64,000 nucleotides of DNA from assembly GCF_002148795.1 (NCBI RefSeq), contig NZ_MPOB01000006.1:62001-126000 (forward strand), given 5' to 3'. The notes below the pieces were generated by a model. That model saw only the letters and a program-made list of their open reading frames with translations. It ran no database searches and was not told the DNA's origin. This DNA comes from Oceanibaculum nanhaiense (lineage in GTDB: Bacteria; Pseudomonadota; Alphaproteobacteria; Oceanibaculales; Oceanibaculaceae). Shown here in pieces: positions 21,221 to 45,717 of the stretch. The stretch's first letter is position 1. Each line of letters begins with the position of its first letter. The position numbers and the translations under genes were made by a program.

Positions 21221-22340
21221 CTAGGCGGTCTGCCCGGCCCCGTCGCCCAGCTTGGAGGCCAGCGAGGCTTCCAGGAAGCGGTCGATATCGCCATCCAGCA
21301 CGGCGCCGGAATTGCCGGTCTCAACCCCGGTGCGCAGGTCCTTCACCATCTGATAGGGCTGCAGCACATAGGAGCGGATCTGGTGCCCCCAGCCGATGTC
21401 GGTCTTGGCGTCTTCCTGCGCCTGCGCCGCCTCCTCGCGCAGCTGCAATTCCCGCTCATACAGACGCGCCTTCAGCATCGAGAAGGCGGTAGCGCGGTTC
21501 TTGTGCTGCGAGCGGTCGCTCTGGCACTGCACCACGATGCCGGTCGGGATATGGGTGATGCGGATGGCACTGTCGGTCTTGTTGACGTGCTGGCCGCCGG
21601 CCCCCGAGGCCCGGTAGGTGTCGATGCGCAGGTCCTTTTCCTCGTATTCCACCTCGATCTCGTCATCGACCACGGGATAGACCCACACCGAGGAAAAGCT
21701 GGTGTGGCGCCTGGCCTGCGAATCGAACGGCGAGATGCGCACCAGCCGGTGCACGCCGCTTTCATGCTTCAGCCAGCCATAGGCATTCGGGCCAGTGATC
21801 TTCAGCGTGGCCGATTTCAGCCCGGCTTCTTCGCCGGCGCTTTCTTCCAGCCATTCGACCTTGTAGTCATGCTGCTCGGCCCAGCGTGTGTACATGCGCG
21901 ACAGCATCAAGGCCCAGTCCTGCGCCTCGGTGCCGCCAGCGCCGGCATGCACTTCAAGATAGCAGTCATTGCTGTCCGCCTCGCCCGACAGCAGGCTTTC
22001 CAGCTGCTTCTTGGCCGCGATCTCGCGCAGCCGAGCCAGTACCTTCTCGGCCTCGGTGACGACATCCTGGTCGCCCTCCATCTCGCCGAGTTCGATCAGT
22101 TCCAGCGTATCGTTCAGCTCGCGCTCGATGGCGCGATAGCCCTCGATGCCCTTTTCCAGCTGGGTGCGCTCGCGCAGCAGCTTCTGCGCCTTGTCGCTGT
22201 CGTTCCACAAATTGGGATCGGCCGTGAGGGCATTCAGCTCGTCGAACCGGGAAACCGCACGATCCCAGTCAAAGATGCCTCCTCAGCAGCGCCAACGAGT
22301 CTCTGATCTCGTCGGCGACCGCTTGAATTTCCGCGCGCAT
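21221..22340 (-). CDS. prfB: peptide chain release factor 2, with programmed +1 frameshift
   Basis: The product is about 372 residues and is read by joining 22340-22272 to 22270-21221. The first 23 codons start [14 protein letters not shown] and end in CTT followed by in-frame TGA; the +1 frame continues [20 protein letters not shown] three bases before CTT completes the classic RF2 recoding site. The rest has the stop-recognition SPF motif ([10 protein letters not shown]) and the peptidyl-hydrolase loop [15 protein letters not shown]2 ends translation at UGA and UAA and controls its own synthesis: low RF2 favours the frameshift. It is the last gene after amiC and mrcA. Confidence 0.97.
22268..22283 (-). 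promoter_or_regulatory. prfB: prfB programmed +1 frameshift site
   Basis: On the minus strand the sequence is AGGAGG-CAT-CTT-TGA-C. The internal Shine-Dalgarno (22283-22278) is three bases from the slippery CTT (22274-22272), and the UGA is followed by C, as in the E. coli site. The ribosome skips the T at 22271. Confidence 0.95.
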
Positions 22341-22394
22341 CGCGTCTCTCCAAATCCAGTCAGGTTGCCGGCGGCATGCCGGCAGGAAGCGCCC

Positions 22395-24806
22395 TTAATA
22401 CAGGCCGCCGAGCCCGGTCGCAACCGGCGCCCTTTCATCTCCGGTCGTGGTATCGCCGATGGAAGGCGGCATGTCCGCCTGCCCCGGTTCCGGCGCCGTG
22501 CCGGGCCGGAACGCTTCCAGGATCACCGCACCGCCATCGCCGGACCGCGCCAGCTGGCCCGTGGAGGCGTCGATGCGCACGAACTGCACGCCGGGCGGCA
22601 CACGGAACGGGACCGAGGGCTCGCCTTCCAGCGCCTCGGCCATGAAGGCCTTGAAGATCGGCGCCGCGACGGTGGAACCCGACTCGCGCCCCCCCAGGGT
22701 GCGGGGCTGGTCGAAACCGACGAACACGCCAACCGCCAGATCCGGCGAAAAGCCGACGAACCAAGTGTCCAGACTGTCGTTGGTGGTGCCGGTCTTGCCG
22801 GCCAGCGGGCGGTTCAGCTCGGCGATCCGGCGGCCGGTGCCACGCAGGACCACCCCCTGCAGCATGGAGGTCATCTGATAGGCCGTCACCGGCGCGACCA
22901 CCTCCTCGCGCAAATCCGGCACCCGGGGGACGCTCTGCCCGTCCCAGACATCGACGAGGCAGTCCTCGCAGGGCCGCACATCGTGACGGTACAGCGTCCG
23001 GCCGTTGCGGTCCTGGATGCGGTCGATCAGATGCGGGGATATCCGCTTGCCGCCATTCACCATCATGGCGTAGCCGGCGGTCATCCGCATCAGCGTGGTT
23101 TCCCCGGCGCCCAGCGACATCGACAGCAGCGGCTGCAGATCGTCCATCACCCCGAAACGGCGGGCATACTCCACCACCTTCGGCATGCCGACCATCGCCG
23201 CCAGCCGCACCGTCATCAGGTTGCGCGACTTCTCGATGCCGACGCGCATCGGCTGCGGGCCATAGAATTCGTTGGAATAGTTGGAAGGCTTCCATTTCGG
23301 CAGCCCCGGCCCCTGGTCGAGAACGATGGGGCCGTCGATGATGACGGTGGCCGGCGTGAAGCCATTATCCAGCGCCGCCATATAGACGAAGGGCTTGAAG
23401 GAGGAACCGGGCTGCCGGTTCGCCTGGGTGACCCGGTTGAACTGGCTTTCGTCGAAGCTCCAGCCACCGGTCATCGCCAGCACGCGGCCGGTATGCGGGT
23501 CCATCGCTACCAGCGCACCTTCCACATCAGGCACCTGACGCAGAGCGAAATTCCCCTCCGACGACAGCGCCTCGACAGCAATCACGTCACCGACCGCCAA
23601 CACATCGCCGGCGCGGCGCACCTCCGCCCCCAGCTTCTGATCCTCCTGCCAGGGCCGCGCCCAGCGCAGCTCAGCGAAGGGCACGGTACCGCGCGCGCCA
23701 TCGGTCAGCCCGACACGGACCTGATCATTGGCGACCTCCAGCACCACGGCCAGCCGCCACGGCGCCAGCCCGGCCGGCGTCTTCACCTGCGCCAGCGCCA
23801 CCCGCCAGTCGCCGCCCACATCGATCCGGTCGATGGGGCCGCGCCAGCCATGCCGCCGGTCATAGGCGACCAGGCCGTCGCGCAACGCGCGGTCGGCAAT
23901 AGCCTGAAGTTCTGGCGAGATCGATGTCCGAACCGACAGGCCGCCGCCATAGGCGCCATCCTCGCCGAAGCGGTCAACCAGTTCGCGGCGCACTTCCTCG
24001 GCGAAATAATCGGCGACGGTGAACTGCTCCGAATCGCGGCGTCGCATCATCAGCGGCTCGGCCATCGCCATATCGGCCTCGGCGGCCGAGATATGGCCGT
24101 TTTCCAGCATGCGCATGATAACCCAGTCGCGCCGCGCCTTGGCGGCGTCGCGATGCCGTACCGGATGGTAATTGCTGGGCGCTTTCGGCAGCGCCGCCAG
24201 ATAGGCCGCCTCGGCGATCGTCAGATCGACCAGCGACTTGTTGAAATAATTCAGCGCCGCCGCCGCCACGCCATAGGCGCGGTTGCCGAGGAAAATCTCG
24301 TTCAGATAAAGTTCGAGGATGCGTTCCTTGCTGAACGCCTTCTCCATGCGGAAGGCGAGCATCGCCTCCTTGATCTTGCGGTCGATGGAGACCTCGTTGG
24401 TCAGCAGGAAATTCTTCGCGACCTGCTGGGTGATGGTGGACGCCCCCACCGGGCGCCGGTCGGAGCCGAATTGCTGCAGGTTCTGCACCACGGCGCGCAG
24501 GATGCCCTGGACGTCGATACCGGGATGCTCGAAGAAATTCTTGTCCTCGGCCGACAGGAAGGCATTCACCAGCCGCTTCGGCATCGCCTCATAGGGCACG
24601 AAGACGCGGCGTTCGGTGGCATATTCGGCCAGCAGCCGACCGTCACCGGCATGCACGCGGGTCACCATCGGCGGACGGTAGTCCGCAAGCTGCTTATAAT
24701 CCGGCAAATCCTGGCTGTAATGATGCAGCACGAAAGCCACACCGGCGACCCCGACAATCGTCAGAAGCAGCAAGAGTCCCGCCAGATATCCAAGAAACCG
24801 AGTCAT
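22395..24806 (-). CDS. mrcA: penicillin-binding protein 1A
   Basis: An 803-residue class A PBP. A single N-terminal membrane anchor is followed by a GT51 transglycosylase domain (catalytic Glu in SAEDKNFFEHPGID, then GASTITQQVAKNF) and an OB-like region. The transpeptidase has the nucleophile serine in PGSSFKPFVY, the SRN-like KSRNLMTVRL and the KTGTTNDSLDTWFVG box. It polymerises and cross-links peptidoglycan at the inner membrane. GGAGGA precedes the ATG. It lies between amiC and prfB, an arrangement common in alphaproteobacteria. Confidence 0.96.
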   Translation of the reverse strand: MTRFLGYLAGLLLLLTIVGVAGVAFVLHHYSQDLPDYKQLADYRPPMVTRVHAGDGRLLAEYATERRVFVPYEAMPKRLVNAFLSAEDKNFFEHPGIDVQGILRAVVQNLQQFGSDRRPVGASTITQQVAKNFLLTNEVSIDRKIKEAMLAFRMEKAFSKERILELYLNEIFLGNRAYGVAAAALNYFNKSLVDLTIAEAAYLAALPKAPSNYHPVRHRDAAKARRDWVIMRMLENGHISAAEADMAMAEPLMMRRRDSEQFTVADYFAEEVRRELVDRFGEDGAYGGGLSVRTSISPELQAIADRALRDGLVAYDRRHGWRGPIDRIDVGGDWRVALAQVKTPAGLAPWRLAVVLEVANDQVRVGLTDGARGTVPFAELRWARPWQEDQKLGAEVRRAGDVLAVGDVIAVEALSSEGNFALRQVPDVEGALVAMDPHTGRVLAMTGGWSFDESQFNRVTQANRQPGSSFKPFVYMAALDNGFTPATVIIDGPIVLDQGPGLPKWKPSNYSNEFYGPQPMRVGIEKSRNLMTVRLAAMVGMPKVVEYARRFGVMDDLQPLLSMSLGAGETTLMRMTAGYAMMVNGGKRISPHLIDRIQDRNGRTLYRHDVRPCEDCLVDVWDGQSVPRVPDLREEVVAPVTAYQMTSMLQGVVLRGTGRRIAELNRPLAGKTGTTNDSLDTWFVGFSPDLAVGVFVGFDQPRTLGGRESGSTVAAPIFKAFMAEALEGEPSVPFRVPPGVQFVRIDASTGQLARSGDGGAVILEAFRPGTAPEPGQADMPPSIGDTTTGDERAPVATGLGGLY

Positions 24807-24973
24807 TTTCCTCCGAAACCCGTCTGATCCGCCGGGAAGCCCGCAATGCGATGGCCAGCCCCGTTTCCAACCCCGTGCTCAATCCCTTGAGCAGCATCAC
24901 CATCCTGTCACAACGTCACCACCATGGCAGCCGTTCCCAAAGAAGGGGATGCCTGCCGATGGTCCGTCCGCCC

Positions 24974-26820: not shown

Positions 26821-29565
26821 ATGACGAAGCGTATGCTTATCGACGCGACCCATTCCGAAGAAACGCGGATGGTCGTGCTAAACGGCAATCGTCTTGAAGA
26901 GTTCGATTTCGAAACTGCCGCCAAGCGCCCCCTGAAGGGCAATATCTACCTCGCCCGGGTCACCCGGGTCGAACCCTCGCTGCAAGCGGCGTTCGTTGAA
27001 TATGGCGGCAACCGCCACGGTTTCCTCGCCTTCAACGAAATCCACCCCGACTATTACCGCATCCCCATCGCCGACCGCGAAGCGCTGGTCAGCGAGATGG
27101 AAGCCGAGCGTGACGAAGGCGCCAATGGCAATGGCGATTCGGTCGAGGTGCTGGGCGGTGACGATGTCGAGGAAGTCCAGCGCCGGCGGCCCAACCTGTC
27201 GCGCCAGTACAAGATCCAGGAGGTCGTGAAACGCCGCCAGATCATGCTGGTGCAGGTCACGAAGGAAGAGCGCGGCACCAAGGGTGCTGCCCTGACCACC
27301 TTCCTGTCGCTGCCCGGCCGCTATTGCGTGCTGATGCCGAACACCGCGCGTGGCGGCGGTGTTTCGCGCAAGATCACCAACGTCAACGACCGCAAGCGCC
27401 TGAAGAAGATCGTCGAGGAGCTGGAGCTTCCCACGGGCATGGCGGTCATCGTCCGCACCGCCGGGTCGGAGCGCACCAAGGCCGAGATCAAGCGCGACTT
27501 CGACTATCTGATCAAGCTGTGGGACGACATCCGCGAACTGACGCTGCAGTCCAATGCGCCGTCGCTGATCTATGAAGAGGGCAACCTCATCAAGCGCGCG
27601 CTGCGCGACATCTATGACAGCGAGATCGAGGAAGTGCTGCTCGAGGGTGATGAAGGCTACAAGAGCGCCAAGACCTTCATGAAGGACCTCATCCCCAGCC
27701 ACGCCAAGAAGGTTCAGCAGTACAAGGATCCGGTGATCCCGCTGTTCCAGCGCTATCAGGTGGAAAGCCAGCTGGACGCGATTCACAGCCCGACCGTGCA
27801 GCTGAAGTCCGGCGGCTATATCGTGATGAACCAGACCGAGGCGCTGGTCGCCATCGACGTGAATTCGGGCCGCTCCACGCGCGAGCGCAATATCGAGGAG
27901 ACGGCCTACCGCACCAATCTGGAAGCCGCCGAGGAAGTGGCGCGCCAGCTTCGCCTGCGCGACCTGTCGGGCCTGATCGTGATCGACTTCATCGATATGG
28001 AGGAGAATCGCAATCAGCAGGCGGTCGAGCGCAAGCTGAAGGAGTCGATGAAGAACGACCGGGCGCGCATCCAGATCGGCCGGATCAGCCATTTCGGCCT
28101 GCTGGAACTGTCGCGCCAGCGGCTGCGCCCCAGCGTGTTCGAGACCGCCAACCAGCCCTGCCCGCATTGCGCCGGCACCGGCTATATCCGGTCCACCGAC
28201 ACCACGGCGCTGCATGTGCTGCGCGCCATCGAGGAAGAGGGTATCCGCCAGCGCGCGTCGGAGATCGCCGTCTATGTGCCGACGCAGATCGCCCTCTATA
28301 TCCTGAACCAGAAGCGCGCCGCGCTGGCGCTGATCGAGGCGCGTTACAGCTTCGAGGTTATCATCGGCAGCGACGATACGCTGATCCCGCCGGCCTTCCG
28401 GCTGGAACGGCTGCGGCAGCGCAGCGCCGAGGAGCAGGCAGCCCTTGAAGCCGCAGCACCGGCCCGGATCGAAGCCCCGGTCGAGATCGACGAGGACGAG
28501 GACGAGATCGAGGAAAGCGTCGTGCAGGGCGACGCGGGCGATGCCGAGGACGCCCCCCGGGGTGGCGACGATACCCAGGATGGCGAAGCCCGCGAGGGCC
28601 GCCGTCGGCGTCGGCGGCGCCCGGGCCGTGGTGGCCGCGATGGCGAGCCGCGTCCGGTGGCGTCGGACGATCAAGCCGACTCCGCCGACAGCGACGATGA
28701 CGCGCCTGCCGATGCCGAATCGGAAAGCACTGGCGAGTCCCATGCCGGTGAAACCCTGAGCGCCGAAGAAGAAGAGCGGCAGCGCAAGCGGCGTCGGCGC
28801 GGCCGGCGTGGCGGGCGGCGGCGGCGGCGCACGCAGGAGGAGCAGGACAGCCTTGCCGCCTCCGGCGAAGCGACTGAGTCCGATGCCGATACCTATGCCG
28901 ACAGGGATACCGGTACGGATGCAGCCACCGAGGCGCAGCCCGCTGCTGAACCAACGGATGCAGAGAAGCCCAAACGCTCCCGCCGTGGCCGTGGCCGTGC
29001 CGCCAACCAGGAAGCTGTGGAAGTGACCGCCGAGGCGCCTGCAGCGGTAGTTGAAGCCGCGCCGGAAGGCGTTATGGAGACCGAGGCGCCGGCCAAGCCG
29101 AAACGCCCCAGCCGCCGCAAGCCCAAGGCCGAAGCTGCAGCTGCCGTGACAGACGAGGCGGTGACGGCGGAAGCGGTAACCCCAGAAGGCGTAACGGTCG
29201 AAGTGATCACGCCGGAATCCGTTGCCGCTCCCGAGGCTGGCGAGGAAAAGCCGAAGCCGGCCCCACGCAAGCGGGCGCCCCGCAAGGCAGCGGCGAGCAC
29301 GGAAACCGTGGAGGCCGAAAAGCCGAAGCGCGCCCGCGCGCCCCGCAAGCCGAAGGCACCTGCGGCAGCAGAAACCGTTGATGCGGCAGCAGAGACGGTT
29401 GATATGGCAGCAGAGACGGTTGATATGGCAGCAGCGGAAACCGCAGCCAGCCCGGTCGTGGAGACAATCATCGTCAAGGCGGAGCCGGCAGCGGCCAAGC
29501 AGCCAGAGGGCGAGCCGGACAAGCCGGCAAAGCGCGGTTGGTGGAGCCGTGCAGTCGGCCGCTGA
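26821..29565 (+). CDS. rne: ribonuclease E
   Basis: A 914-residue endoribonuclease. The N-terminal half has the S1 domain (GNIYLARVTRVEPSLQAAFV, about residue 40), the catalytic DNase I-like motif (ALVAIDVNSGRST and LIVIDFIDMEE, with the two aspartates) and the zinc link CPHCAGTG. From about 560 the tail is a low-complexity run of acidic patches and arginine-rich blocks (RRRRRRPGRGGRD), the degradosome and RNA-binding scaffold. A 21-bp tandem repeat lies near the 3' end. It processes rRNA and tRNA precursors and starts mRNA decay. A strong terminator follows. Confidence 0.97.
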   Translation: MTKRMLIDATHSEETRMVVLNGNRLEEFDFETAAKRPLKGNIYLARVTRVEPSLQAAFVEYGGNRHGFLAFNEIHPDYYRIPIADREALVSEMEAERDEGANGNGDSVEVLGGDDVEEVQRRRPNLSRQYKIQEVVKRRQIMLVQVTKEERGTKGAALTTFLSLPGRYCVLMPNTARGGGVSRKITNVNDRKRLKKIVEELELPTGMAVIVRTAGSERTKAEIKRDFDYLIKLWDDIRELTLQSNAPSLIYEEGNLIKRALRDIYDSEIEEVLLEGDEGYKSAKTFMKDLIPSHAKKVQQYKDPVIPLFQRYQVESQLDAIHSPTVQLKSGGYIVMNQTEALVAIDVNSGRSTRERNIEETAYRTNLEAAEEVARQLRLRDLSGLIVIDFIDMEENRNQQAVERKLKESMKNDRARIQIGRISHFGLLELSRQRLRPSVFETANQPCPHCAGTGYIRSTDTTALHVLRAIEEEGIRQRASEIAVYVPTQIALYILNQKRAALALIEARYSFEVIIGSDDTLIPPAFRLERLRQRSAEEQAALEAAAPARIEAPVEIDEDEDEIEESVVQGDAGDAEDAPRGGDDTQDGEAREGRRRRRRRPGRGGRDGEPRPVASDDQADSADSDDDAPADAESESTGESHAGETLSAEEEERQRKRRRRGRRGGRRRRRTQEEQDSLAASGEATESDADTYADRDTGTDAATEAQPAAEPTDAEKPKRSRRGRGRAANQEAVEVTAEAPAAVVEAAPEGVMETEAPAKPKRPSRRKPKAEAAAAVTDEAVTAEAVTPEGVTVEVITPESVAAPEAGEEKPKPAPRKRAPRKAAASTETVEAEKPKRARAPRKPKAPAAAETVDAAAETVDMAAETVDMAAAETAASPVVETIIVKAEPAAAKQPEGEPDKPAKRGWWSRAVGR
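29362..29439. repeat. rne: 21-bp tandem repeat in the rne tail
   Basis: Three copies of a 21-bp unit (core GCAGCAGAGACGGTTGAT) lie at 29362-29382, 29383-29403 and 29404-29424, followed by a partial fourth. Being a multiple of three, the array keeps the frame and encodes repeated Ala-rich ETVD units. Confidence 0.9.
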
Positions 29566-29870
29566 CCTGAAATAGATACAAGTTTAAGACAAAGACCCCC
29601 GAGACAAAACTCGGGGGTCTTTTTATTGTTTATTTCAAATTTTCGGAAAATAGACCTTCGATATAACAAGAAATATATGACCATTGCTTCAAAATAAGCC
29701 GCCCATTAATAATTCATCAATCATTTCGCTGAAACATGAGGGCACGCCAGATAGAAGGCGCACCAACCAATAACCTGCCCCTCCAGTAATCTGCCCCTCC
29801 AGCAATCTGTCCTGTCGTCCCACCAGCCGGCCCCTCCCCCTCCGCCGTCATCGACCGAAGAGCCAGAACC
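29566..29870. other. 305-bp intergenic region, rne to chemoreceptor
   Basis: It holds the rne terminator, then an A+T-rich stretch (29625-29720) likely to carry the chemoreceptor promoter, and a short imperfect direct repeat with core CTGCCCCTCCAG (about 29777-29805). No gene is supported. Confidence 0.6.
29591..29624 (+). terminator. intrinsic terminator of rne
   Basis: A 13-bp perfect stem, AAAGACCCCCGAG / CTCGGGGGTCTTT, around an ACAAAA loop, running into T5. Confidence 0.97.
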
Positions 29871-31880
29871 ATGAAATTCCTCGACAACCTGAAGGTTTCG
29901 ACCAAGATTTCCACGAATTCCGGCCTTATCTTGCTCCTGCTTCTCGTTTGCAGTGGCGTGACAATCTACGGGCTGGAGACGGCGAAGCAGTATTTCGCCG
30001 ATTACCGCAGCCTGACCGTGCAGACGGTAAGCGCCGCCGAGGTGCAGACGAACATGCAGAGCGCGCGCATCGGCGTTACCGGCTTCATCCTGAACGGCAA
30101 CCGGCAGGCCGCCGGAATCGTGGTCGAGAACGTGACCCTGGCGCAGGAGAACATCCAGCGGATCCTCGACCAGATCGAAGATCCCGCCATCACCGCCCGG
30201 ATGGAGGGCGCTGCCAGTCAGATCCGCGCCTATAACCAGACCTTCCAGTCGTTGCTTCCCATGCAGGAGCGCCGGGAAGAGCTGATGGGCAAGATGATCG
30301 CCCTGGGTGAGGACTCAAGCGCCGCCCTGAACGGGCTGATGACCGGCATGCAGCAGGAATTCAACACGGACGGTGTGTTCATGGCCGGCCAGGCGATGCG
30401 CCAGCTCATGCTGGCGGAAATCCAGGCCACCCTGTTCCTGTCGGAGAACGGCAGCAAGCAGGTCGATGCCTTCGCCGACCATATCAGCCAGTTGAAGGAG
30501 ATGATGGTGGGGCTGGACGTGATCGTATCCAGCACCGAGGGGCGGCAGCATGTCGATACGCTGACCACCGCCATCCCGCAATATGAGACACTCTTCAGCG
30601 AGGTCGTCGGCATCATCCTGCGGCGCAACGCCACCGTCTCGCACCGGCTGGACCGGATGGGCCCGCAGATCGCCAACGATCTCGATCAGATCAAGGGCGA
30701 CAATGCAGCACAGATGCGGGAGATCGGCGAGGCCGCTTTTATCGCCATCGACCGCTCCTTCATCATCGGCGCCGGGGTTTCGGCCTTCGCCCTGCTCGCC
30801 GGCATCGCGCTGTCGGTCCTGATCGGACGCGGCATCGCCAGGCCGATCATCGGCATGACGCAGGCGATGACGGCCCTGGCCGGCGGCGACAAGGAAACCG
30901 AGATTCCCGCACAGGACCGCAAGGATGAGGTCGGCCAGATGGCCGGCGCCGTCCAGGTGTTCAAGGAGAACATGATCCGCGCCGATGAGCTCGCCACCCA
31001 GCAGGCGGTGGAACAGCAGGCCCGCGAAAAGCGCGCCCAGGCCATCGAGCGGATGACCCAGGATTTCGACGCCGCTGTTGCAGGTGTGCTGGCCCAGGTC
31101 GGCGCCGCCACGGCCCAGCTGCAATCGACCGCGTCCTCCATGTCCGCCACCGCCGAGGAGACCAACCATCAGGCCGGCGCCGTCGCCGCCGCGTCCGAAC
31201 AGGCCGCCGCCAATGTCCAGACGGTCGCCGCCGCCTCGGAAGAGCTGTACAGCTCGATCCAGGAGATCGGCCGTCAGGTCAGCCAGTCGTCGACCATCGC
31301 CGACAAGGCCAGCAAGGACGCGCGCAAGACCAACGAGCAGGTCGAGGCGCTGGCCCTGGCCGCGCAGAAGATCGGCGAGGTGGTCCGGCTGATCCAGGAC
31401 ATCGCCGAGCAGACCAACCTGCTGGCGCTGAACGCCACCATCGAGGCGGCCCGTGCCGGGGAAGCCGGCAAGGGCTTCGCCGTGGTCGCGTCGGAGGTCA
31501 AATCGCTCGCCACCCAGACCGCGCAGGCGACCGAGCAGATCGGCCAGCAGATCGGCAGCATCCAGACCGAGACGACATCGGCCGTCGCCGCCATCCGCGA
31601 GATCGGCGATACCATCTCCGAGATCAACGACATCGCTGCCAACATCGCCGCCGCGGTGGAAGAACAGGGAGCGGCGACGCAGGAAATTTCCCGCAATGTG
31701 CAGGAAGCGGCGAAGGGCACGCAGGAAGTCTCGACCAACATCGTCGGCGTGACCCAGGCCGCCGCCGAGACCGGTCAGGCCGCCGATCAGGTGACCCACT
31801 CCGCCGGCAATGTCGCCAACCAGTCGGAAGAGCTGCGCCTTGCGGTGGAAAACTTCCTGAAAGGCGTGCGCGCCGCCTGA
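29871..31880 (+). CDS. methyl-accepting chemotaxis protein
   Basis: A 669-residue transmembrane receptor. TM1 is at about 15-38, followed by a periplasmic helical-bundle sensor (to about 300), TM2 at about 300-322, a HAMP domain ([20 protein letters not shown]) and a long coiled coil. The signalling hairpin is [20 protein letters not shown]. It ends in [11 protein letters not shown] with no NWETF-type CheR tether. It should relay an unknown extracellular cue to CheA. It is closed by the terminator at 31901-31929. Confidence 0.95.
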
Positions 31881-31900
31881 TAGGGATGCCCCATAAAAAG

Positions 31901-31929
31901 AAAAAGGCGCCGGTGACGGCGCCTTTTTT
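31901..31929. terminator. bidirectional terminator between the chemoreceptor and aminotransferase genes
   Basis: The stem AAAAAGGCGCCG / CGGCGCCTTTTTT with a GTGA loop is flanked by A and T runs, so it serves both convergent genes. Confidence 0.95.
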
Positions 31930-31933
31930 CGTA

Positions 31934-33082
31934 TCAGCTCAGGAAATTCCCGATCCGTTCGGCCGCCTTCGCCACATCCTCCGTCGCACCGGCATAGGAC
32001 AGGCGGACGAAGCGATTGCCCCGATCCGGGTCAAAATCCATGCCGGGTGTCAGCGCCACCCCGGTTTCGGCCAGCAGGCGGCGGCAGAATTCCGCGCTGT
32101 CATTGGTGAAACGCCCGACATCGGCGTAGATGTAGAACGCGCCATCGGCCCGCGAGAACTCCGTGATACCGGCTTTCGGCAGCGCCGCCAGCAGAATGTC
32201 GCGGTTGCGCCGGTATGTCGCGACCAGCGCGTCCAGCTCCTCCGTACAATCAAAGGCGGCAACCGCGGCGTGCTGCGACAGGGCGGAGGCGGAAATGAAC
32301 AGATTCTGCCCCAGGCATTCGACCGGTCGGATCATATCCTCCGGCAGCACCAGCCAGCCCAGCCGCCAGCCGGTCATCGAGAAATATTTCGAAAAGCTGT
32401 TCACCACAACGGCACTGCTGGAGCTGGCCAGCGCCGTTGCCGCCTGCGCCTCGAACTCGATACCATGATAGATCTCGTCGGAGATGAGCCGGATGCCTTC
32501 TTCGTCGCAATAGCGGGATATCTCCGCCAGCCCCTCGGCGGAGACGATGCTGCCGGTCGGGTTGGCCGGGCTGGCCAGGATCAGCCCGTCGATGCGGCCG
32601 GCACGCTGCATCTCGCGCAGCAGCGGTACGGTCGGCTGATAGGCGCTGTCCGGCCCGGTCGGAATCTCCACCGGCTCCAGCCCCAGCGCCACCAGGATAT
32701 TGCGATAGGCGGGATAGCCGGGGGCGGCCAGCGCCACGCGGTCGCCCGGCTCGAACGCCGCCAGGAAGGACAGGATGAAGCCGCCCGACGAGCCGGGCGT
32801 CACCACGATGCGCGCCGGATCGACCGACACGCCATACCGCGCGCGGTAATGCCCGGCCAGCCTTTCCCGCAGGGGCAGGATGCCGAAGGCCTCGGTATAG
32901 CCCAGCAATTCGCTGTCGATGGCGCGCTTCGCGGCTTCCAGAACCCTGGACGGCGCGCCGGTCGAAGGCTGACCGATCTCCAGATGCAATACATCGGCGC
33001 CGGTGGCCGCGCGTTCGTTGGCGGCACGCATCACATCCATGACGATAAAGCCGGGAATTCGCCCGCGCTTTGCGATCTTCAT
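31934..33082 (-). CDS. pyridoxal-phosphate aminotransferase class I/II
   Basis: A 382-residue fold-type I aminotransferase. The PLP lysine is in NSFSKYFSMTGWRLGW; the pocket aspartate/tyrosine region is LISDEIYHGIEF, with SPANPTGSIVS before it. GAGGAAGAGAG before ATG 33082 fixes the start, although the frame is open to 33295. It probably acts on aspartate, aromatic or branched amino acids; specificity is not readable. Its start is 26 bp after the end of the GGT-like gene, so the two may be co-transcribed. Confidence 0.92.
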   Translation of the reverse strand: MKIAKRGRIPGFIVMDVMRAANERAATGADVLHLEIGQPSTGAPSRVLEAAKRAIDSELLGYTEAFGILPLRERLAGHYRARYGVSVDPARIVVTPGSSGGFILSFLAAFEPGDRVALAAPGYPAYRNILVALGLEPVEIPTGPDSAYQPTVPLLREMQRAGRIDGLILASPANPTGSIVSAEGLAEISRYCDEEGIRLISDEIYHGIEFEAQAATALASSSSAVVVNSFSKYFSMTGWRLGWLVLPEDMIRPVECLGQNLFISASALSQHAAVAAFDCTEELDALVATYRRNRDILLAALPKAGITEFSRADGAFYIYADVGRFTNDSAEFCRRLLAETGVALTPGMDFDPDRGNRFVRLSYAGATEDVAKAAERIGNFLS

Positions 33083-33108
33083 ACTCTCTTCCTCAATGTA
33101 TCGGTCTG

Positions 33109-34701
33109 TCAGTCGCCGCTGGCGGCAAGCCCATAGCCACGCGGATCGGTGGCGCGGACGCAGAGCGGATTGCCCGGCAAGCCTTGCGGGCAGTGCGCCG
33201 CCTGCACCCGGCCGAAATGCCGTCCCTCCTCCAGCCGGTAGCCGCGTGCCGCAAGATCGGTACGCACCGCCTCCGGCATGGACTTTTCGTACCATAGCGT
33301 ATCGGCGGTACCCCCCAGATGCAGGCGCGGCGCGGCGATGGCCTGATCCAGCGGCACTTCCGCCGCCGCCGCGTCAAGCGCCACGCGGACCAGCGCGCTG
33401 GTGGCGGAAAAACCGCCGCTGCCGGTGCCGGTGAAATAGACATTCTTGCTGTTCTCGTTGAACACGATCAGCGCATGGCCGACCGGTCCCAGCTGGCCGG
33501 CGGGTGCGGGCGGCGGCGCCACGATGAAGCCGAGGCCCGGCACCTTGCGCAAGGTGCCGAAGGGCGTGTTCATGGTGAAGCTGCAGGCCACCATCTGGCC
33601 GGTGCCGTCATAGGTGGCAATGCCGGCCGCCCCCGGCCCGCCATGCGCCGGCGCGGACAGCGGCAGCGCCGCCGAATCGCCGGAAGCCTTCGCCCGGTCG
33701 TGCCCACGCATCGCGGCTTCCGCCTCTTCCTTGCCAAGCGGCCGGACCTTGCCGTCCGCGCGAATCTGGTCGGCGACGGCCTGGTGTGCGCGCAGGCTGG
33801 CATCCGCCAGTAGATGCGGCCGGTCGGCAGGGCTTGCAGCGGCATAGGACCGCCCGTCGGTCAGCAGCCGCCACAGGCTGCCGGCAATCGCGCCATTCAC
33901 CGCATCGGTGCTGGCCAGCGCCACCTTGTGCACGCCCAGTTCCAGCCCGTCATGCGGCCGCCAGCGCGGCACATAGGCCTGCAGCGCCGCCTGAGGCAGG
34001 CTGCCGCCGCTCTGTTCGATGGCGGCGGACAGCTCACGCGCCAGCCGTCCGGTGTAGAGATCGCCGATTCCGGCCTGCCGCAGCCGGCCCAGCGTGGCAC
34101 CCAGATCGAGATGGGTCATCGGGTCGCCTTCGCGCACCAGCCGCCCCTGGGTGACGAAGCTTTGCCGCATATCGGGAATCTGCGCGATGGCGCGGCCGGC
34201 GAAGGCCACATCCTCGGCCAGCGCGCGCGAAACTGGCTCGCCGAAACGCGCCAGCCGCTCGGCCGGCAGGATCAGCTGGTCGATGGGCATACGGCCATAG
34301 CGCGCATGCAGCGCGAACACGCCACGCGGCGCGGCGGGGATCGCCACGGCGTTCGATTCGGTGCCGGACGCGACCGCCGGGAATTCGAGAATCTCGCCGA
34401 CATTGCTCCGCCGGTCATAGACCGCGCAGGCACCGCCGCCGCCAAGCCCGACTGAAGAGGGCAGCGTCACCGACAGCGCGAAATAGCCTGCAACCGCCGC
34501 ATCGGCAGCCGTGCCGCCCGCCGCCAGCACGTCGCGCGCGACCAGTGCCGCCCTCGGCTCCCCGGACACGGCGCCACCGACGAAGTCCGGCGCGATGAAT
34601 TGCGTGGACTCCGTGCTGCCGCAACCGGCGAGAACGCCAAGCGAGCATGCAATGCCCATCGCCGCCGCTATCGGATGACGCCAGGCGGTCAGTGACTGCA
34701 T
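33109..34701 (-). CDS. gamma-glutamyltransferase-like lipoprotein, catalytic threonine apparently missing
   Basis: A 530-residue GGT-fold protein with a lipoprotein signal (lipobox LAGC, Cys about 27). The large-subunit features are there (RDVLAAGGTAADAAVAGYFA, VGLGGGGACAVYD), as are later small-subunit strands (CSFTMNTPFGTLRKVPGLGF, GSGGFSATSALVRVALD, ATDPRGYG). At the autoprocessing site, where GGTs have Thr-Thr-His, it has GPGAAGIATYDG (about 356-366), so the nucleophile threonine is not in place. It may be non-catalytic or use a different residue. It resides in the envelope and lies upstream of the aminotransferase gene. Confidence 0.82.
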   Translation of the reverse strand: MQSLTAWRHPIAAAMGIACSLGVLAGCGSTESTQFIAPDFVGGAVSGEPRAALVARDVLAAGGTAADAAVAGYFALSVTLPSSVGLGGGGACAVYDRRSNVGEILEFPAVASGTESNAVAIPAAPRGVFALHARYGRMPIDQLILPAERLARFGEPVSRALAEDVAFAGRAIAQIPDMRQSFVTQGRLVREGDPMTHLDLGATLGRLRQAGIGDLYTGRLARELSAAIEQSGGSLPQAALQAYVPRWRPHDGLELGVHKVALASTDAVNGAIAGSLWRLLTDGRSYAAASPADRPHLLADASLRAHQAVADQIRADGKVRPLGKEEAEAAMRGHDRAKASGDSAALPLSAPAHGGPGAAGIATYDGTGQMVACSFTMNTPFGTLRKVPGLGFIVAPPPAPAGQLGPVGHALIVFNENSKNVYFTGTGSGGFSATSALVRVALDAAAAEVPLDQAIAAPRLHLGGTADTLWYEKSMPEAVRTDLAARGYRLEEGRHFGRVQAAHCPQGLPGNPLCVRATDPRGYGLAASGD

Positions 34702-34776
34702 AATCTCGAAAACCTTTCATTGACGGGAGAGACTGCCCCACTTACTTACCAAAGCGGGGCGAGGAGAGACGCTATA

Positions 34777-36126
34777 GTGCTTCAGAAATTTCGCGTTCTG
34801 GTCGCCATAATCCTGTCGGTCGTCATTGCAGGCTCGCCGCTGCCGGCGATGGCAGCGGGCATGAGCCTGATTCGCGATACGGAAATCGAAAATACCATCC
34901 GCGACTATGCGACGCCACTGTTCGCGGCGGCAGGGCTGCAACCGGACAATATCCGCATCTTCATCGTCAATGGCGACGATATCAACGCCTTCGTCGCCGG
35001 CGGGCAGAACCTGTTCCTGAATTCCGGGCTGCTGGTGCGCTCCGACAACCCCAACCAGATCATGGGGGTGATCGCGCACGAAACCGGCCATATCGCCGGC
35101 GGCCATCTGGCGCGCCTGCAGGACGAGCTGCGCCGTGCAAGCATCGCGCAGATCCTGTCGATGGTGTTGGGCGCCGTCGCCGTCGCCGCGTCCGGCCAGG
35201 GCGAGGCCGGTATGGGCGTCATGGTGGGCGGGTCGGAAATGGCGCGCCGCGTGCTGCTGCAATATAACCGCAACCAGGAACAGGCGGCCGATCAGGCCGG
35301 CGTGAAATACCTCGATGAGATCGGCCAGTCCAGCCGCGGCATGGTGGAAATCCTGGAAAAGCTGAGCGGCCAGGAAATGCTGCTGGCGAGCCGCCAGTCG
35401 CCCTATGTGCGCAGCCATCCGCTGACCAGCGAGCGCATGAATTTCGTGCGCAACCACTTGGCCAACTCGCCCTATGCCGACGCGCCGCCGCCCGAGGGCT
35501 TCCCGATGCGCCACAAGCGCATGGTGGCAAAGCTGCACGGCTTCATGCAGCAGCCCGGCAAGACGCTGATGGATTATCCCGCAAGCGACACCAGCCTTCC
35601 GGCGCGCTATGCAAGGGCCATCGCCTATTACCGCATCCCGGACATGAACCGCGCCGTGCCCGCCATCGACGCGCTGATCGCCGATCATCCCGACGATCCC
35701 TATTTCCGCGAGCTGAAGGGGCAGATGCTCTATGAGAATGGCCGCGTCGCCGAGGCGCAGAAAGCCTATGCCGAAGCCATCAAGCGCCTGCCCGACGCGC
35801 CGCTGGTCCGCGCCGCCCATGCCGAGACGCTGCTGGCCCTGAACAAGGAGGACGACACCCGTTGGGCCCTGGCGGAGCTGCAGGAATCGGTGCGCCAGCA
35901 GCCGGAAAACAGCCGGGCCTGGCGCCAGCTTGCCATCGCCCATGGCCGGCTGGGCGATACCGGCCTCGCCGCCCTGGCGCTGGCCGAGGAGGCACTGCTG
36001 ACCGGCCAGCGGCAGACCGCCCGCCAGCAGGCGCGCCGCGCCCAGGCGCAACTCCCCACCGGATCGCCGGGCTGGCTGCGCGCCGAGGATATCGAGACCA
36101 CGACACGGCGCGACGCCGAGCGCTGA
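34777..36126 (+). CDS. M48 family metalloprotease with TPR repeats (BepA-like)
   Basis: A 449-residue periplasmic protein. A GTG start at 34777 after GAGGAGAG gives a clean signal peptide (MLQKFRVLVAIILSVVIAGS, cleavage after AMA). The zinc protease motif HETGH is in GVIAHETGHIAGGHLARLQD, with a second ligand region NRNQEQAADQAGVKYL. The C-terminal 180 residues are TPR-like helices (ARAIAYYRIPDMNRAVPAID). By homology to BepA/YfgC it would help outer-membrane protein assembly or quality control. Confidence 0.92.
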   Translation: MLQKFRVLVAIILSVVIAGSPLPAMAAGMSLIRDTEIENTIRDYATPLFAAAGLQPDNIRIFIVNGDDINAFVAGGQNLFLNSGLLVRSDNPNQIMGVIAHETGHIAGGHLARLQDELRRASIAQILSMVLGAVAVAASGQGEAGMGVMVGGSEMARRVLLQYNRNQEQAADQAGVKYLDEIGQSSRGMVEILEKLSGQEMLLASRQSPYVRSHPLTSERMNFVRNHLANSPYADAPPPEGFPMRHKRMVAKLHGFMQQPGKTLMDYPASDTSLPARYARAIAYYRIPDMNRAVPAIDALIADHPDDPYFRELKGQMLYENGRVAEAQKAYAEAIKRLPDAPLVRAAHAETLLALNKEDDTRWALAELQESVRQQPENSRAWRQLAIAHGRLGDTGLAALALAEEALLTGQRQTARQQARRAQAQLPTGSPGWLRAEDIETTTRRDAER

Positions 36127-36229
36127 GCGCGCGCCGCCATTCCGGCCGTGGACACCACACCGTGGACAGGCCGGTCCCTGCCCCGCATAGTCTGCACGCC
36201 ATCACCAAAGGCAAAAAGGAGAAAGCCCG

Positions 36230-37042
36230 GTGGGTCGATATACGGCGAACCCTCTTTCCGCGCTGGCGCTGGCCGGTACGATGATCTTCCTGGCAGGGCT
36301 TCCCGCCCTGGCCGATACGCCGAAGACGGAAACCGCGCCCGCGGCGACACCCCCGGCGGCTCAGGCGCCGGCCGGCTTCGACGAGCCCCAGAAACAGGCG
36401 ATCGAACAGATCGTCCGCGACTATCTGCTGGCCAACCCGGAAGTGCTGCGCGACGCCCTGATCGTCCTTGGCAGCCGCGAGAAGGCCGCCGCCGAGGGCC
36501 AGCGCAAGCAGCGCATAGAGGCCCTGCGCGCCGAGCTGGAGCACCAGCCTGACGATCCGGTGCTGGGCAATCCAGACGGCCGGATCACCATTGTCGAGTT
36601 CTTCGATTATCAGTGCGGCTACTGCAAGGCGATGAAGCCGGCCATGCAGAATATCCTGGCCAGCGAGAAGGATGTCCGCGTGGTGATGAAGGAATTCCCG
36701 ATCCTCAGCGAGGTCTCCACAATCGCCGCCCGCGCCGCGCTGGCCGCCCAGGCGCAAGGCAAGTACGCGGTATTCCACGACCGGCTGATGGGGCATCGCG
36801 GCCGGCTGAGCGAGGAGGCGATCTTCGCCGCCGCCCAGGAGGTTAGCCTCGATGTCGAGCGCCTGAAGGCGGACATGCAGGCCCCGTCGGTGGAGGCGGT
36901 GCTGAAGCGCAACCACATGCTGGCGGAGCGGCTGGAGATCAGCGGCACCCCCACCTTCATCGTCGGCGAGACGCTGGTTCCCGGCGCGGTGAACGAGGAA
37001 GGGATGCGCAAGCTGATCGCCGAAATGCGGGCAAAGCTGTAG
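36230..37042 (+). CDS. DsbA family thiol-disulfide protein
   Basis: A 270-residue protein from GTG 36230 (after AAAAGGAGAAAG) with a signal peptide ending about residue 30 (GLPALADT). A helical linker (about 45-100) precedes the thioredoxin fold, whose active site is CGYC in FFDYQCGYCKAMKP. The cis-Pro segment is ISGTPTFIVGETLVPG. It resembles BdbD/ScsC-like periplasmic oxidoreductases that oxidise or isomerise disulfides. It lies between the BepA-like protease and aroQ, with 103 bp and 84 bp gaps. Confidence 0.92.
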   Translation: MGRYTANPLSALALAGTMIFLAGLPALADTPKTETAPAATPPAAQAPAGFDEPQKQAIEQIVRDYLLANPEVLRDALIVLGSREKAAAEGQRKQRIEALRAELEHQPDDPVLGNPDGRITIVEFFDYQCGYCKAMKPAMQNILASEKDVRVVMKEFPILSEVSTIAARAALAAQAQGKYAVFHDRLMGHRGRLSEEAIFAAAQEVSLDVERLKADMQAPSVEAVLKRNHMLAERLEISGTPTFIVGETLVPGAVNEEGMRKLIAEMRAKL

Positions 37043-37126
37043 CGCGGCTCGCGCACCTCCGTTGCCTCTGGCGACGGGCATGCTATAAACGCGTCAATTC
37101 AGAAACAGACGAGAGTAGCCGCGCGC

Positions 37127-37582
37127 GTGACCGACCGCCCCGAGATCATGATCCTGAACGGGCCGAACCTCAACATGTTGGGGGTTCGCGAACCGGCGAT
37201 CTATGGCCGCGAGACGCTCGGCGATATCGAGGATGCCTGCCGGGCCATGGCCGAAGATATCGATCTCGGCATCGATTTCCGGCAGTCCAACCACGAGGGC
37301 GAGCTGGTCTCCTGGATTCACGAGGCGCGGGACAGCGCGGACGGCATCATCATCAATGCCGGTGCCTATACCCATACTTCGGTTGCCATCCTGGATGCGC
37401 TGACCCTGGCCGAACTGCCGGTCATCGAAGTGCATCTTTCCAATATCTACAAGCGCGAGAGCTTTCGCCATCACTCCTACATTTCGCCTGTCGCCCGCGG
37501 TGTCCTGTGCGGGTTCGGCGGCCAGGGCTATGTTCTGGCAATGCAGGCGATGGCACGCATCATCGGCCAAACGGACGAGTAA
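37127..37582 (+). CDS. aroQ: 3-dehydroquinate dehydratase, type II
   Basis: A 151-residue enzyme of the shikimate pathway that turns 3-dehydroquinate into 3-dehydroshikimate. The motif [18 protein letters not shown] includes the catalytic Tyr loop, and [28 protein letters not shown] and the histidine in FRHHSYIS complete the active site. GTG start at 37127. Its TAA is directly followed by the accB ATG, as in many alphaproteobacterial aroQ-accB-accC operons. Confidence 0.96.
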
Positions 37583-41666: not shown

Positions 41667-42033
41667 GATCTGGGTCCGTCCTTGATGCAAGGCAACGTAG
41701 TGCCTGGGTTGCAGGCAACGAAGTGCCCGGAATATTGCACCCTCGCGGCCATTCGTCCAGCCCGGCGGGCGCCGCACAGGGTGATTATCCGCCCTTCCCC
41801 AGTGCAGGAAAACCACGTGATGTGGCTAAATTCTGTCAACCCACAAAATGCAGTTGAACACGCCACCACTTGTGGCACACTTGCTCTCCGCCGCTAGATA
41901 TAGGGTGCCTCGCATCCGGCGACGAGGCGATCGAAACCGTCGGTCGCCACTCAGGACGACAGATCATACGGCCTTGCAGCGATTCCAGGCACGGAGAAGC
42001 GGTGCGGGCGCCGAGGGGACCGAGGGGGACAGA
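41667..42033. other. 367-bp divergent region between the NDUFA12 gene and nrdJ
   Basis: No gene is supported. It holds promoters for both directions, two possible NrdR boxes (41859-41906), and GAGGGGGACAGA as the nrdJ ribosome-binding site. No cobalamin riboswitch core was recognised. Confidence 0.6.
41859..41906 (+). promoter_or_regulatory. candidate paired NrdR boxes upstream of nrdJ
   Basis: The 3' box CCGCTAGATATAGGGT (41891-41906) matches the CTAGATATAG core of NrdR boxes. A weaker site, CACGCCACCACTTGTG (41859-41874), starts 32 bp upstream, the helical spacing usual for paired boxes. NrdR represses ribonucleotide reductase genes when dATP is high. Confidence 0.4.
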
Positions 42034-45000
42034 ATGAAAATCGAGCGTCGCTTCACCGAGGCCGGCAAGGATGCCTATGCCGCGCTTTCCTTCCGCAAGA
42101 CGACCAGCGAGATCCGCAATCCGGATGGCTCCGTCGTCTTTCAGCTGAAGGACATTGAGGTGCCGGCCAGCTGGTCGCAGGTCGCCTGCGATATCCTGGC
42201 GCAGAAATATTTCCGCAAGGCCGGCGTGCCGGTGGCGCTGAAGCCGGTCAAGGAAGAGAATGTTCCGTCCTGGCTGTGGCGCAACGCCCCCGACGCCAAG
42301 CGGCTGGACACCCTCGCCCCCGCCGACCGCACCACGCATGAGGAGAGCGCCAAGCAGGTGTTCGACCGGCTGGCCGGCACCTGGACCTATTGGGGCTGGA
42401 AGGGTGGCTATTTCGACGCGGAAGAAGACGCCCGCACCTATTTCGACGAGATGCGCTTCATGCTGGCCGCGCAGATGGCGGCGCCGAATTCCCCGCAATG
42501 GTTCAACACCGGCCTGCACTGGGCCTATGGCATCGACGGCCCGGCGCAGGGCCATCACTATGTGGACTTCAAGTCCGGCAAGCTGGTGAAGTCGAATTCC
42601 GCCTACGAGCACCCGCAGCCGCATGCCTGCTTCATCCAGTCGGTCGGCGACGATCTGGTGAATGATGGCGGCATCATGGATCTGTGGGTCCGCGAGGCGC
42701 GGCTGTTCAAGTATGGCTCGGGCACCGGCACCAACTTCTCGAAGCTGCGCGGCGAGGGCGAGCGCCTGTCCGGCGGCGGCAAATCCTCTGGCCTGATGAG
42801 CTTCCTGAAGATCGGCGACCGCGCGGCGGGCGCCATCAAGTCGGGCGGCACCACCCGGCGCGCCGCCAAGATGGTGACGGTCGATATCGACCATCCCGAC
42901 ATCGAGGCTTATATCGACTGGAAGGTGAATGAGGAGCAGAAGGTCGCCTCGCTGGTGACCGGCTCCAAGATCAACCAGAAGCATCTGGCCACCGTCATGG
43001 CCGCCTGCCAGGACGGTGAGGGCGAAGCGCGCTTCGATCCGAAGCAGAACCGTGCGCTGAAGAAGGCGATCTTCGAGGCACGCACCGCGATGGTCGCCGA
43101 GAACCTGATCCAGCGTACCATCCAGTTCGCGCGCCAGGGTTTCAGCGCCATCGAGTTCCGCACCTACGACACGGACTGGGATTCCGAGGCCTACCTGACG
43201 GTTTCCGGCCAGAATTCGAACAATTCCGTGCGCCTGACCAATGAATTCCTGCGCGCGGTCGAGACCGATGCCGACTGGGATCTCATCCGCCGCACCGACG
43301 GCAAGCTGCACAAGCGCCTGAAGGCGAAGGAGCTGATGGACCGCATCAGCTACGCCGCCTGGGCCTGCGCCGATCCCGGCATCCAGTACGACAGCACGAT
43401 CAACGAGTGGCACACCTGCCCGGAAGGCGGGCGGATCAACGCCTCCAACCCGTGCTCGGAATATATGTTCCTCGACGATACGGCCTGCAATCTGGCGTCG
43501 CTGAACCTGATGACCTTCCGCAAGGAAGATGGCAGCTTCGACATCGCCGGCTACGAGCATGCGGTGCGGCTGTGGACGGTGACGCTGGAAATCTCCGTGC
43601 TGATGGCGCAGTTCCCGTCCAAGGAAATCGCCAAACTCTCGTACGAATACCGCACGCTGGGCCTGGGTTACGCCAATATTGGCGGCCTGCTGATGTCCAT
43701 GGGCCTCGGCTATGACAGCGACAAGGGCCGCGCGCTGTGCGCCGCGCTGACCGCGGTGATGACTGGCCGCGCCTATGCCACCTCCGCCGAGATGGCGCAG
43801 GAGCTGGGCGCCTTCCCCGGCTACAAGAAGAATGGCGCGCACATGCTGCGCGTTATCCGCAACCACCGGCTGGCCGCGCATAGCGCGACCGAAGGCTATG
43901 AGGCGCTGGAAGTGGCGCCGGTGCCGCTGGATGCCGCCAACTGCCCGGAACAGGCGCTGGTCCGGGCGGCCAGGCTGGCCTGGGACGATGCGCTGGCGCT
44001 GGGCGAAGCCTATGGTTTCCGCAACGCACAGACCTCCGTCATCGCGCCGACCGGCACCATCGGGCTGGTCATGGATTGCGACACCACCGGCATCGAACCG
44101 GACTTCGCCCTGGTGAAGTTCAAGAAGCTGGCCGGCGGCGGCTATTTCAAGATCATCAACCGCATGGTGCCGCAGGCCCTGAAGGTGCTGGGCTATGACG
44201 AGGCCACGGTCGAGAACATCGTGCGCTATGCGGTCGGCCATCAGAGCCTGAAGAACGCGCCGGGCATCGACCATGCGAAGCTGAAGGAAAAGGGCTTTAC
44301 CGACGAAGCGCTGGAAAAGCTGGAGGGAAGCCTCGCCAGCGCCTTCGACATCAAGTTCGTATTCAACAAATGGACCTTCGGCGAAGAATTCTGCCGCGAC
44401 ATGCTGGGCCTCGACCAGGCACAGCTCGACGACATGAATTTCGACATGCTGGCGGCGCTGGGCTTCTCCAGGGCCGATATCGAGGCGGCCAACACCTACT
44501 GCAGCGGCGCCATGACGCTGGAAGGCGCGCCGGGCCTGAAGGACGAGCATCTGTCGGTGTTCGACTGCGCCAACCCGTGCGGCCGCATCGGCAAGCGCTT
44601 CCTGTCGGTGGAGAGCCACATCCGCATGATGGCGGCGGCGCAGCCCTTCATCTCCGGCGCCATCTCCAAGACCATCAACATGCCGAACAACGCGACGGTC
44701 GAGGATTGCGCCAACGCCTATGTCCTGTCCTGGAAGCTGGGCATCAAGGCAAACGCGCTGTACCGCGACGGTTCCAAGCTCTCCCAGCCGCTCTCGGCCG
44801 CCCTGCTGGACGCCGAGGATCTGGAGGAGTTCGAGGAAATCGTCGAGCAGCCGGCCGCCGCGCGCGCACCGGCCATCGCCGAGAAGATCGTGGAGCGCAT
44901 CATCGAGCGCGTCATCAACCGCGAGAAGCTGCCGGGCCGCCGCAAGGGCTATACCCAGAAGGCAGTCGTCGGCGGCCACAAGGTCTATCTGCGCACCGGC

Positions 45001-45717
45001 GAGTACGAGGATGGCCGTCTGGGCGAGGTATTCATCGACATGCACAAGGAAGGCGCCGCCTTCCGCTCGCTGATGAATAATTTCGCCATCGCGATTTCCA
45101 TTGGCCTGCAGTACGGCGTGCCGCTGGACGAGTATGTCGATGCCTTCACCTTCACCCGGTTCGAGCCGTCGGGCATGGTCGAGGGCAATGACGCGATCAA
45201 GATGGCGACCTCCATCCTGGACTATATCTTCCGGGAACTGGCGATCAGCTATCTCGGCCGCACCGACCTCGCCCATGCGGAACCCGCCGACCTCGCCCCC
45301 GATACGGTGGGACGCGGCACCGGCGACGCCACCCGCACCAATGACGAGGCGCTGGCCGCCGTCGAGCGGGTGACCAGCCGCGGCTTCGTGCGCAACAACC
45401 TCGTGGTGTTCACCGGCGGCCTGACGGAAACCGCCAAGGCCAACGGCACCACCGGCTATCACGCGCATGCCGATGCCCATGGCCACAATCATGGCGGGCA
45501 CGATCATGGCCTCGCCACCACGACCACCCGCACCACGGCGGTTGCCGTCAGCCAGCAGGTGGTCGAGGCGGTGGACGCCAAGTTCGACAGGATCCGCGAG
45601 GCACGCATGAAGGGCTATGAAGGCGACAGCTGCCCGGAATGCGGCAACTTCACGCTGGTGCGGAACGGCACCTGCCTGAAGTGCGACACCTGCGGCGGCA
45701 CCACCGGCTGCTCGTAA
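42034..45717 (+). CDS. nrdJ: vitamin B12-dependent ribonucleotide reductase (class II)
   Basis: A 1227-residue adenosylcobalamin-dependent enzyme that reduces ribonucleotides to deoxyribonucleotides. Seen: [70 protein letters not shown] with the catalytic cysteines, and the C-terminal zinc-ribbon [18 protein letters not shown] with a redox CGGTTGCS tail. A His-rich stretch ([18 protein letters not shown]) precedes the tail. The frame is open from 41848, but [15 protein letters not shown] at 42034 is the real start. It is monocistronic, with a strong terminator. Confidence 0.97.

Follow-up and report, generated by a model that had tools for sequence, protein, structure and literature searches.

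Gamma-glutamyltranspeptidase (GGT) depends on one threonine both to process itself and to catalyse; when it is changed to alanine in the E. coli, H. pylori or B. licheniformis enzyme, self-processing fails and activity is lost (PMC6769717, PMC8062742). The E. coli T391S variant is given as impaired, not dead (PMC8062742). Another natural GGT homologue is human GGT2, which is described as 94% identical to an active paralogue and as encoding only inactive prepeptides (PMC12663528); GGT2 is eukaryotic, and its likeness to the protein described here is one of description alone. A precedent of another kind comes from Sinorhizobium meliloti, in which the protease JspA and the lipoprotein LppA reportedly depend on each other (PMC10659215). 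In that case an M48 protease and a lipoprotein act jointly in an alphaproteobacterial envelope, and the resemblance to the present locus is one of logic. LppA has 148 residues and JspA carries LysM, whereas the locus reported here encodes a putative lipoprotein of 530 residues and an M48 protease with TPR.

The window, the whole 64,000-nucleotide stretch of Oceanibaculum nanhaiense DNA that was analysed, encodes a GGT homologue without the catalytic threonine (Table 1). Its predicted model resembles the E. coli Ggt T391A precursor (PDB 2e0w) in the whole fold, in the alanine at the nucleophile position and, as predicted here, in an uncleaved chain. Unlike E. coli Ggt, the window protein is nucleophile-free by nature, lacks the counterparts of Arg114, Gln430, Asp433, the PLSSM pattern and the lid-loop region, and adds a lipobox and four further cysteines. 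Proteins of Bacillus halodurans (2nlz) and Thermoplasma acidophilum (2i3o), CapD and HpxW share the same Ntn-hydrolase fold; they were compared by fold alone and gave lower Z scores (23.6-39.5) than 2e0w.

Membership of the window protein in the PF01019 gamma-glutamyltranspeptidase superfamily follows from homology, both from the Pfam score (9.2e-61, 206.6 bits against a gathering cut-off of 27) and from the GGT fold. The NCBIfam equivalog for functional GGT, TIGR00066, gives the product 137.5 bits, far under its cut-off of 357.85. The protein is a GGT homologue without the defining nucleophile, and the name gamma-glutamyltransferase should not be applied to it; it and its orthologues are called pseudo-GGTs below. 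Eight other PF01019 genes in the same genome (L001-L008) all encode threonine at the nucleophile column, so the loss is not a genome-wide property. Among these eight only L001 retains both Arg114 and Asp433 of E. coli, and the substrates of the eight therefore probably differ.

Table 1. Features of the pseudo-GGT locus, in positions of the window.
Feature	Position	Strand	Basis or remark
Pseudo-GGT lipoprotein gene (lipidation predicted)	33109..34701	-	530 aa; ATG start, TGA stop
Predicted lipoprotein signal peptide, lipobox LAGC, Cys27	34621..34701	-	sequence pattern
Invariant Cys92 codon	34426..34428	-	108/108 rows, 0/11 comparison set
Codons 358-359 (Ala-Ala) at E. coli GGT Thr391-Thr392 positions	33625..33630	-	MAFFT, hhalign, model strand
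Invariant Cys373 codon	33583..33585	-	108/108 rows, 0/11 comparison set
Codons 504-514, Cys504...Cys514 pair just ahead of retained DPRG	33160..33192	-	alignment
Class I/II aminotransferase gene	31934..33082	-	26 bases downstream of pseudo-GGT stop, same strand
BepA-like M48 metalloprotease with TPR, divergent	34777..36126	+	PF01435 1.5e-26 and TPR
DsbA-family thioredoxin-fold protein, ScsC_N domain	36230..37042	+	adjoins protease gene

The original prediction held that the Thr-Thr-His processing site of GGT is replaced in this protein, and two alignments agree. The segment GPGAAGIATYDG starts at residue 355 of the 530-residue protein. A MAFFT alignment of 119 proteins (108 orthologue rows and 11 comparison proteins, E. 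coli Ggt included) and an hhalign comparison (E 1.6e-71) of nine Thr-bearing GGT homologues with an alignment of 75 orthologue rows both place Ala358, Ala359 and Gly360 on Thr391, Thr392 and His393 of E. coli. The strand at residues 332-339 of the AF2 model, equivalent to 358-365 of the open reading frame, begins at Ala358. The strands downstream also align by hhalign, as had been noted: CSFTMN with VTYTLN, GSGG with GSPGG, and TDPRG with SDPR. Two substitutes for the nucleophile were considered and rejected. Thr363, the nearby threonine in IATYD that might have occupied the nucleophile position itself, aligns with Val396 in both alignments and is excluded. A threonine at the second position cannot serve in the window protein, where that residue is alanine.

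Threonine is usually lost across the orthologues, and what replaces it varies. In the MAFFT alignment the nucleophile column of the 108 orthologue rows holds Ala in 52, Gly in 21, Ser in 21, Thr in six, Gln in four, and Val, Glu, Trp and Asp in one each; serine or threonine is thus found in 27/108. The comparison set, made up of E. coli Ggt, eight paralogues from the genome itself and two proteins from relatives, has threonine in 11/11. The second position is Thr or Ser in 61/108 rows. The Ala-Ala pair is conserved within the genus (4/4 genomes). The pseudoenzyme reading first put forward is supported, mainly because the window protein and most of its clade have lost the nucleophile; the altered nucleophile offered beside it is not, as no Ser, Thr or Cys is conserved at or beside the site. 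Since Ser or Thr occurs in 27 rows and T391S is given as impaired rather than dead (PMC8062742), some members might keep activity. The six Thr rows comprise four with Thr-Thr and two with Thr-Ala. Thr-Thr together with the clade cysteines was seen at loci L104, L112, L133, L017 and L209-L211, and such proteins could be reversals, chance occurrences or members with some residual activity.

The rest of the pocket is less telling than the nucleophile. The gamma-glutamyl-binding residues of E. coli are not retained in the window protein: by MAFFT, Arg114 is replaced by Pro108, Gln430 by Pro397, Asp433 by Pro400 and Ser462-Ser463 by Pro406-Val407, and by hhalign the lid-loop region is deleted. Asn411, Gly483 and Gly484 are retained (MAFFT), the two glycines as Gly429-Gly430, with Gly in 90/108 and 95/108 rows. 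Across the 108 rows, Arg stands at the Arg114 column in six, Asp at Asp433 in eight, and Ser or Thr fills the Ser462 column in 12 rows and the Ser463 column in 43; Thr or Ser at the Thr409 column (105/108) and Arg571 (98/108) are largely kept. No orthologue row combines a Ser, Thr or Cys nucleophile with both Arg114 and Asp433, versus three of the 11 comparison proteins, and these three are the only Thr-bearing comparison proteins that hold both residues. The PLSSM pattern is present in one comparison protein (E. coli) and in one orthologue row. Whole-pocket loss was therefore weakened as a mark of the clade, since these E. coli residues are often missing from Thr-bearing PF01019 homologues too. 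Loss of the substrate residues adds to the pseudoenzyme reading and discriminates less; the clade is set apart by the nucleophile column and the cysteines.

The AF2 model, built with 75 sequences, has a mean pLDDT of 93.4 and a pTM of 0.94. Foldseek ranked the uncleaved E. coli T391A precursor first, a ranking that single-chain precursors may owe in part to the storage of mature GGTs as two chains. VIA-align to 2e0w gave Z 44.3 and rmsd 2.6 over 472 aligned residues at 23% identity.

Cys92 and Cys373 are specific to the clade among the rows examined. Cys504 is present in 108/108 rows and Cys514 in 107/108, and the comparison set has cysteine in these columns in 0/11. The C-terminal pair was rejected as unique to the clade because a similar pair occurs in a Thr-bearing GGT homologue of the same phylum and another class (L241, genome G434); this homologue may be closer to the ancestor. 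Other clade-specific conserved residues are Asp47 (a column that is Gly in the window protein), Glu48, Thr79, Arg126, Glu148, Ser158 and Arg208, mostly polar and all within the part matching the GGT large subunit. To judge from the alignment, these conserved residues would suit a surface for contact with other proteins more than they would a new active site.

Anchoring by a lipobox, also part of the original prediction, is supported by pattern: LAGC follows a hydrophobic signal as expected of a bacterial lipoprotein, and its Cys is aligned in 106/108 rows. Asp occupies the +2 position in three of those 106. The +2 residue after Cys27 of the window protein is Gly, which by the E. coli Lol rule would favour the outer membrane.

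An initial search with the protein matched 43 of 59 genomes of relatives and not the other 16; these matches included Thr-bearing GGT homologues, and the best 30 loci were examined. A contig scan added the best 80 of 255 loci encoding a relative, all 80 with record titles that are alphaproteobacterial or an unspecific "Proteobacteria". The 108 rows consist of these 80 loci, L010-L036 and the window protein, chosen by search rank and not by nucleophile site; the copy of the window (L009) was omitted from the rows, and L131 (truncated) and L118 (without an aligned lipobox) were omitted from the folding set and the tree. Some genomes are doubled in the 108 rows or in the 100 loci used for gene order (for example L012/L069/L151, L013/L090/L149, L015/L142/L153, L018/L147 and L071/L152), and the counts given here are of rows or loci, not of independent events. 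In a quick, unrooted tree, a single branch with SH-aLRT 100 parts 61 representative pseudo-GGTs, under 50% identity, from the 18 Thr-bearing homologues included. The dN/dS ratio is 0.12 between the window gene and its 92%-identical congener, and 0.43-0.45 against two more distant congeners. Ala358 is neither a lone mutation nor the mark of a pseudogene.

Orthologues occur in many families of Alphaproteobacteria, and Magnetospirillum is among the carriers (L095, L111, L137). A 27-row profile matched 200 of 289 sampled genomes of the class at 1e-20; these matches take in every kind of GGT homologue. At least 263 bits, a line set above the best Thr-bearing GGT homologue found (G061, 261.6 bits), were scored by 97/289, of which a part was inspected individually. 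Individual inspection covered 20 lower-scoring profile matches. Each of the 14 inspected from among the 97 is a pseudo-GGT that has Cys92 and Cys373, and one of them (L213) ends at a contig edge; those under 263 bits or matched in pieces comprise five pseudo-GGTs with all four cysteines and one Thr-bearing homologue (G061). Threonine stands at the nucleophile column in four of the 19 further members inspected, all four among the 14. Genomes G043 (L033) and G069 (L240), under the 263-bit line, also carry a pseudo-GGT. Counting all 97 would bring the total to about 104 of the 289 class genomes. A full-profile search of 299 genomes of the phylum, with up to five best candidates considered per genome, found no pseudo-GGT outside the class; four of the six top outside-class matches were inspected (ranks 1, 2, 3 and 6), and all are Thr-bearing. 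A C-terminal profile run against 398 genomes gave four matches outside the class, and the one inspected (G434, L241) is Thr-bearing. Weak, divergent members may exist outside the class.

The pseudo-GGT gene keeps the same company in most loci. Thirteen window proteins were searched for in 100 loci. The divergent M48 neighbour is present in 95/97 testable loci (76/77 named, 19/20 others); of the two misses, L131 is a contig of 3.5 kb and L162 gave no match to the M48 query. The aminotransferase gene lies downstream on the same strand in 86/94 testable loci (70/74 named, 16/20 others), and at L115 and L165, counted as misses, the gene is present past the distance limit. A DsbA-family gene lies beyond the M48 gene in 68/83 (53/64 named, 15/19 others), and rne lies beyond the aminotransferase gene in 42/58 named loci and 13/19 others. 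The start of the M48 gene was chosen at 34777 in an open frame that runs from 34720; its product contains both M48 and TPR, and scores 154.9 bits against the BepA model NF052400, whose cut-off is 570. Given its ScsC_N domain, the DsbA-family protein could be an oligomeric disulfide isomerase of the ScsC kind and not a plain DsbA. The names rne, amiC, mrcA, prfB, aroQ, accB, accC and aat are ones we assume from sequence likeness, and further off in the neighbourhood lie genes that we take to encode an amidase and PBP1a.

Control loci temper the meaning of this gene order. Among 22 class genomes with a low best profile score, 18 keep a full M48 relative (E 2e-65 or better), and the other four have weak M48 matches. 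No pseudo-GGT reading frame was found beside the M48 gene in the 18 control loci, searched with about 1.5 kb of flank. One of these (L202) is without upstream sequence, which leaves 17 testable loci; the aminotransferase gene is directly beside the M48 gene in seven, rne is within the flank in eight, and neither is found in two. The M48-aminotransferase block thus persists without the pseudo-GGT gene, so proof of a shared function would need more than gene order, and synteny is weak evidence of function. The pairing with an aminotransferase gene that had been pointed out at the start is indeed common; as a functional pair it is unproven, given the seven control loci.

Several other observations were made in the window. 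A methyl-accepting chemotaxis gene (29871-31880, plus strand; MCP signal, HAMP and weak HBM) lies between rne and the aminotransferase gene. It occupies the same place in the congener G003 (L150), and among the 100 loci it was otherwise found only at L142/L153 (one genome, beside the aminotransferase gene) and L155 (elsewhere); it looks like a lineage-specific insertion. The product of 26821-29565 (plus strand), which we take to be RNase E-like, has a long low-complexity C-terminal tail in which short repeats occur, AAETVDMAAETVDM among them. Long antisense open frames at 31886-33136 (plus), 22146-24827 (plus) and 41836-45507 (minus) lie opposite clear genes, those for the aminotransferase and, by likeness, PBP1a and ribonucleotide reductase; such frames commonly arise at high G+C and do not point to genes. 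No structured RNA was found at 29500-37500 at the gathering threshold, and a promoter scan of 34600-34850 gave one weak plus-strand match, which is uninformative.

Several explanations compete for a GGT fold without its threonine. Loss of a catalytic residue is what a decaying pseudogene or an annotation artefact would display, and this explanation has a negligible probability: the reading frame is intact, the 92%-identical orthologue gives a dN/dS of 0.12, the fold is predicted with confidence, and orthologues with near-invariant cysteines are spread over many families of the class. It is very improbable that the protein is an enzyme that has recruited another catalytic residue, whether a second-position Thr/Ser or an invariant cysteine, or that activity is confined to the Ser/Thr members. 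The frequency of Ser and Thr at the two positions and the invariance of Cys92 and Cys373 speak for such an enzyme. However, both positions are alanine in the window protein and neither is conserved, and no histidine reaches the 88% conservation cut. Cys373 aligns with Val406, and strand alternation should point its side chain away from the nucleophile side.

Two non-catalytic roles are each unlikely as specific proposals. In one, the old cleft would hold a small ligand, such as glutathione or a gamma-glutamyl or muropeptide fragment, and pass it on in the manner of a substrate-binding protein. Retention of the fold and of the Gly483-Gly484, Thr409 and Arg571 columns is consistent with a cleft of this kind, but the window protein has lost the lid-loop region and the residues at the Arg114, Gln430 and Asp433 positions, the segment preceding the nucleophile would probably fill the pocket of an uncleaved chain, and no transporter gene lies immediately on either side. 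In the other, the protein would be an adaptor or inhibitor of the divergent BepA-like M48 protease, by the logic of JspA-LppA. The near-constant M48 neighbour and the published precedent (PMC10659215) argue for this role; against it, the full M48 relative and the gene block persist in genomes without a pseudo-GGT, and the precedent has a different layout.

The explanation that we favour, and consider fairly likely, is that of a secreted, lipid-anchored, uncleaved GGT-fold pseudoenzyme, probably disulfide-braced, that acts by binding or scaffolding rather than by catalysis. The protein would be exported, lipidated at Cys27 and folded as one uncleaved chain, as a natural counterpart of the T391A precursor mutant. 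With its nucleophile lost, it would neither cleave itself nor carry out gamma-glutamyl transfer. The four near-invariant cysteines would probably form two disulfides, and such bracing may replace heterodimer maturation as the stabilising step. A Cys92-Cys373 bond, as proposed, would join the two halves that autocleavage would otherwise separate, and a Cys504-Cys514 bond would lie near the C-terminal hairpin. The protein may then serve in the envelope as a scaffold, an adaptor or a substrate-presenting partner. To judge from the BepA-like protease and the DsbA/ScsC-like neighbour, and from the putative amidase and PBP1a genes at a greater distance, the most plausible setting would be outer-membrane and peptidoglycan housekeeping.

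Given that the fold is kept without its working residue, and in the same place in many alphaproteobacteria, the protein probably has a different job in the envelope. A more far-reaching proposal, tentative and on balance doubtful, is that the pseudo-GGT lipoproteins are ancient, class-wide and disulfide-braced, and constitute a dedicated alphaproteobacterial envelope factor, for example one that partners the divergent BepA-like protease in outer-membrane quality control by binding clients or by regulation. No description of a bacterial pseudo-GGT family was found in the literature searched, a scope outside which most subscription journals fall. The PF01019 match invites the name GGT and hence a part in glutathione metabolism that this protein is very probably unable to play. 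A conserved, intact and catalytically dead GGT-fold lipoprotein in much of a bacterial class points to a different function in the envelope. If the envelope-factor proposal is true, an Ntn-hydrolase fold has been repurposed from enzyme to scaffold. The family also offers a natural experiment on why this fold is kept once the nucleophile is gone.
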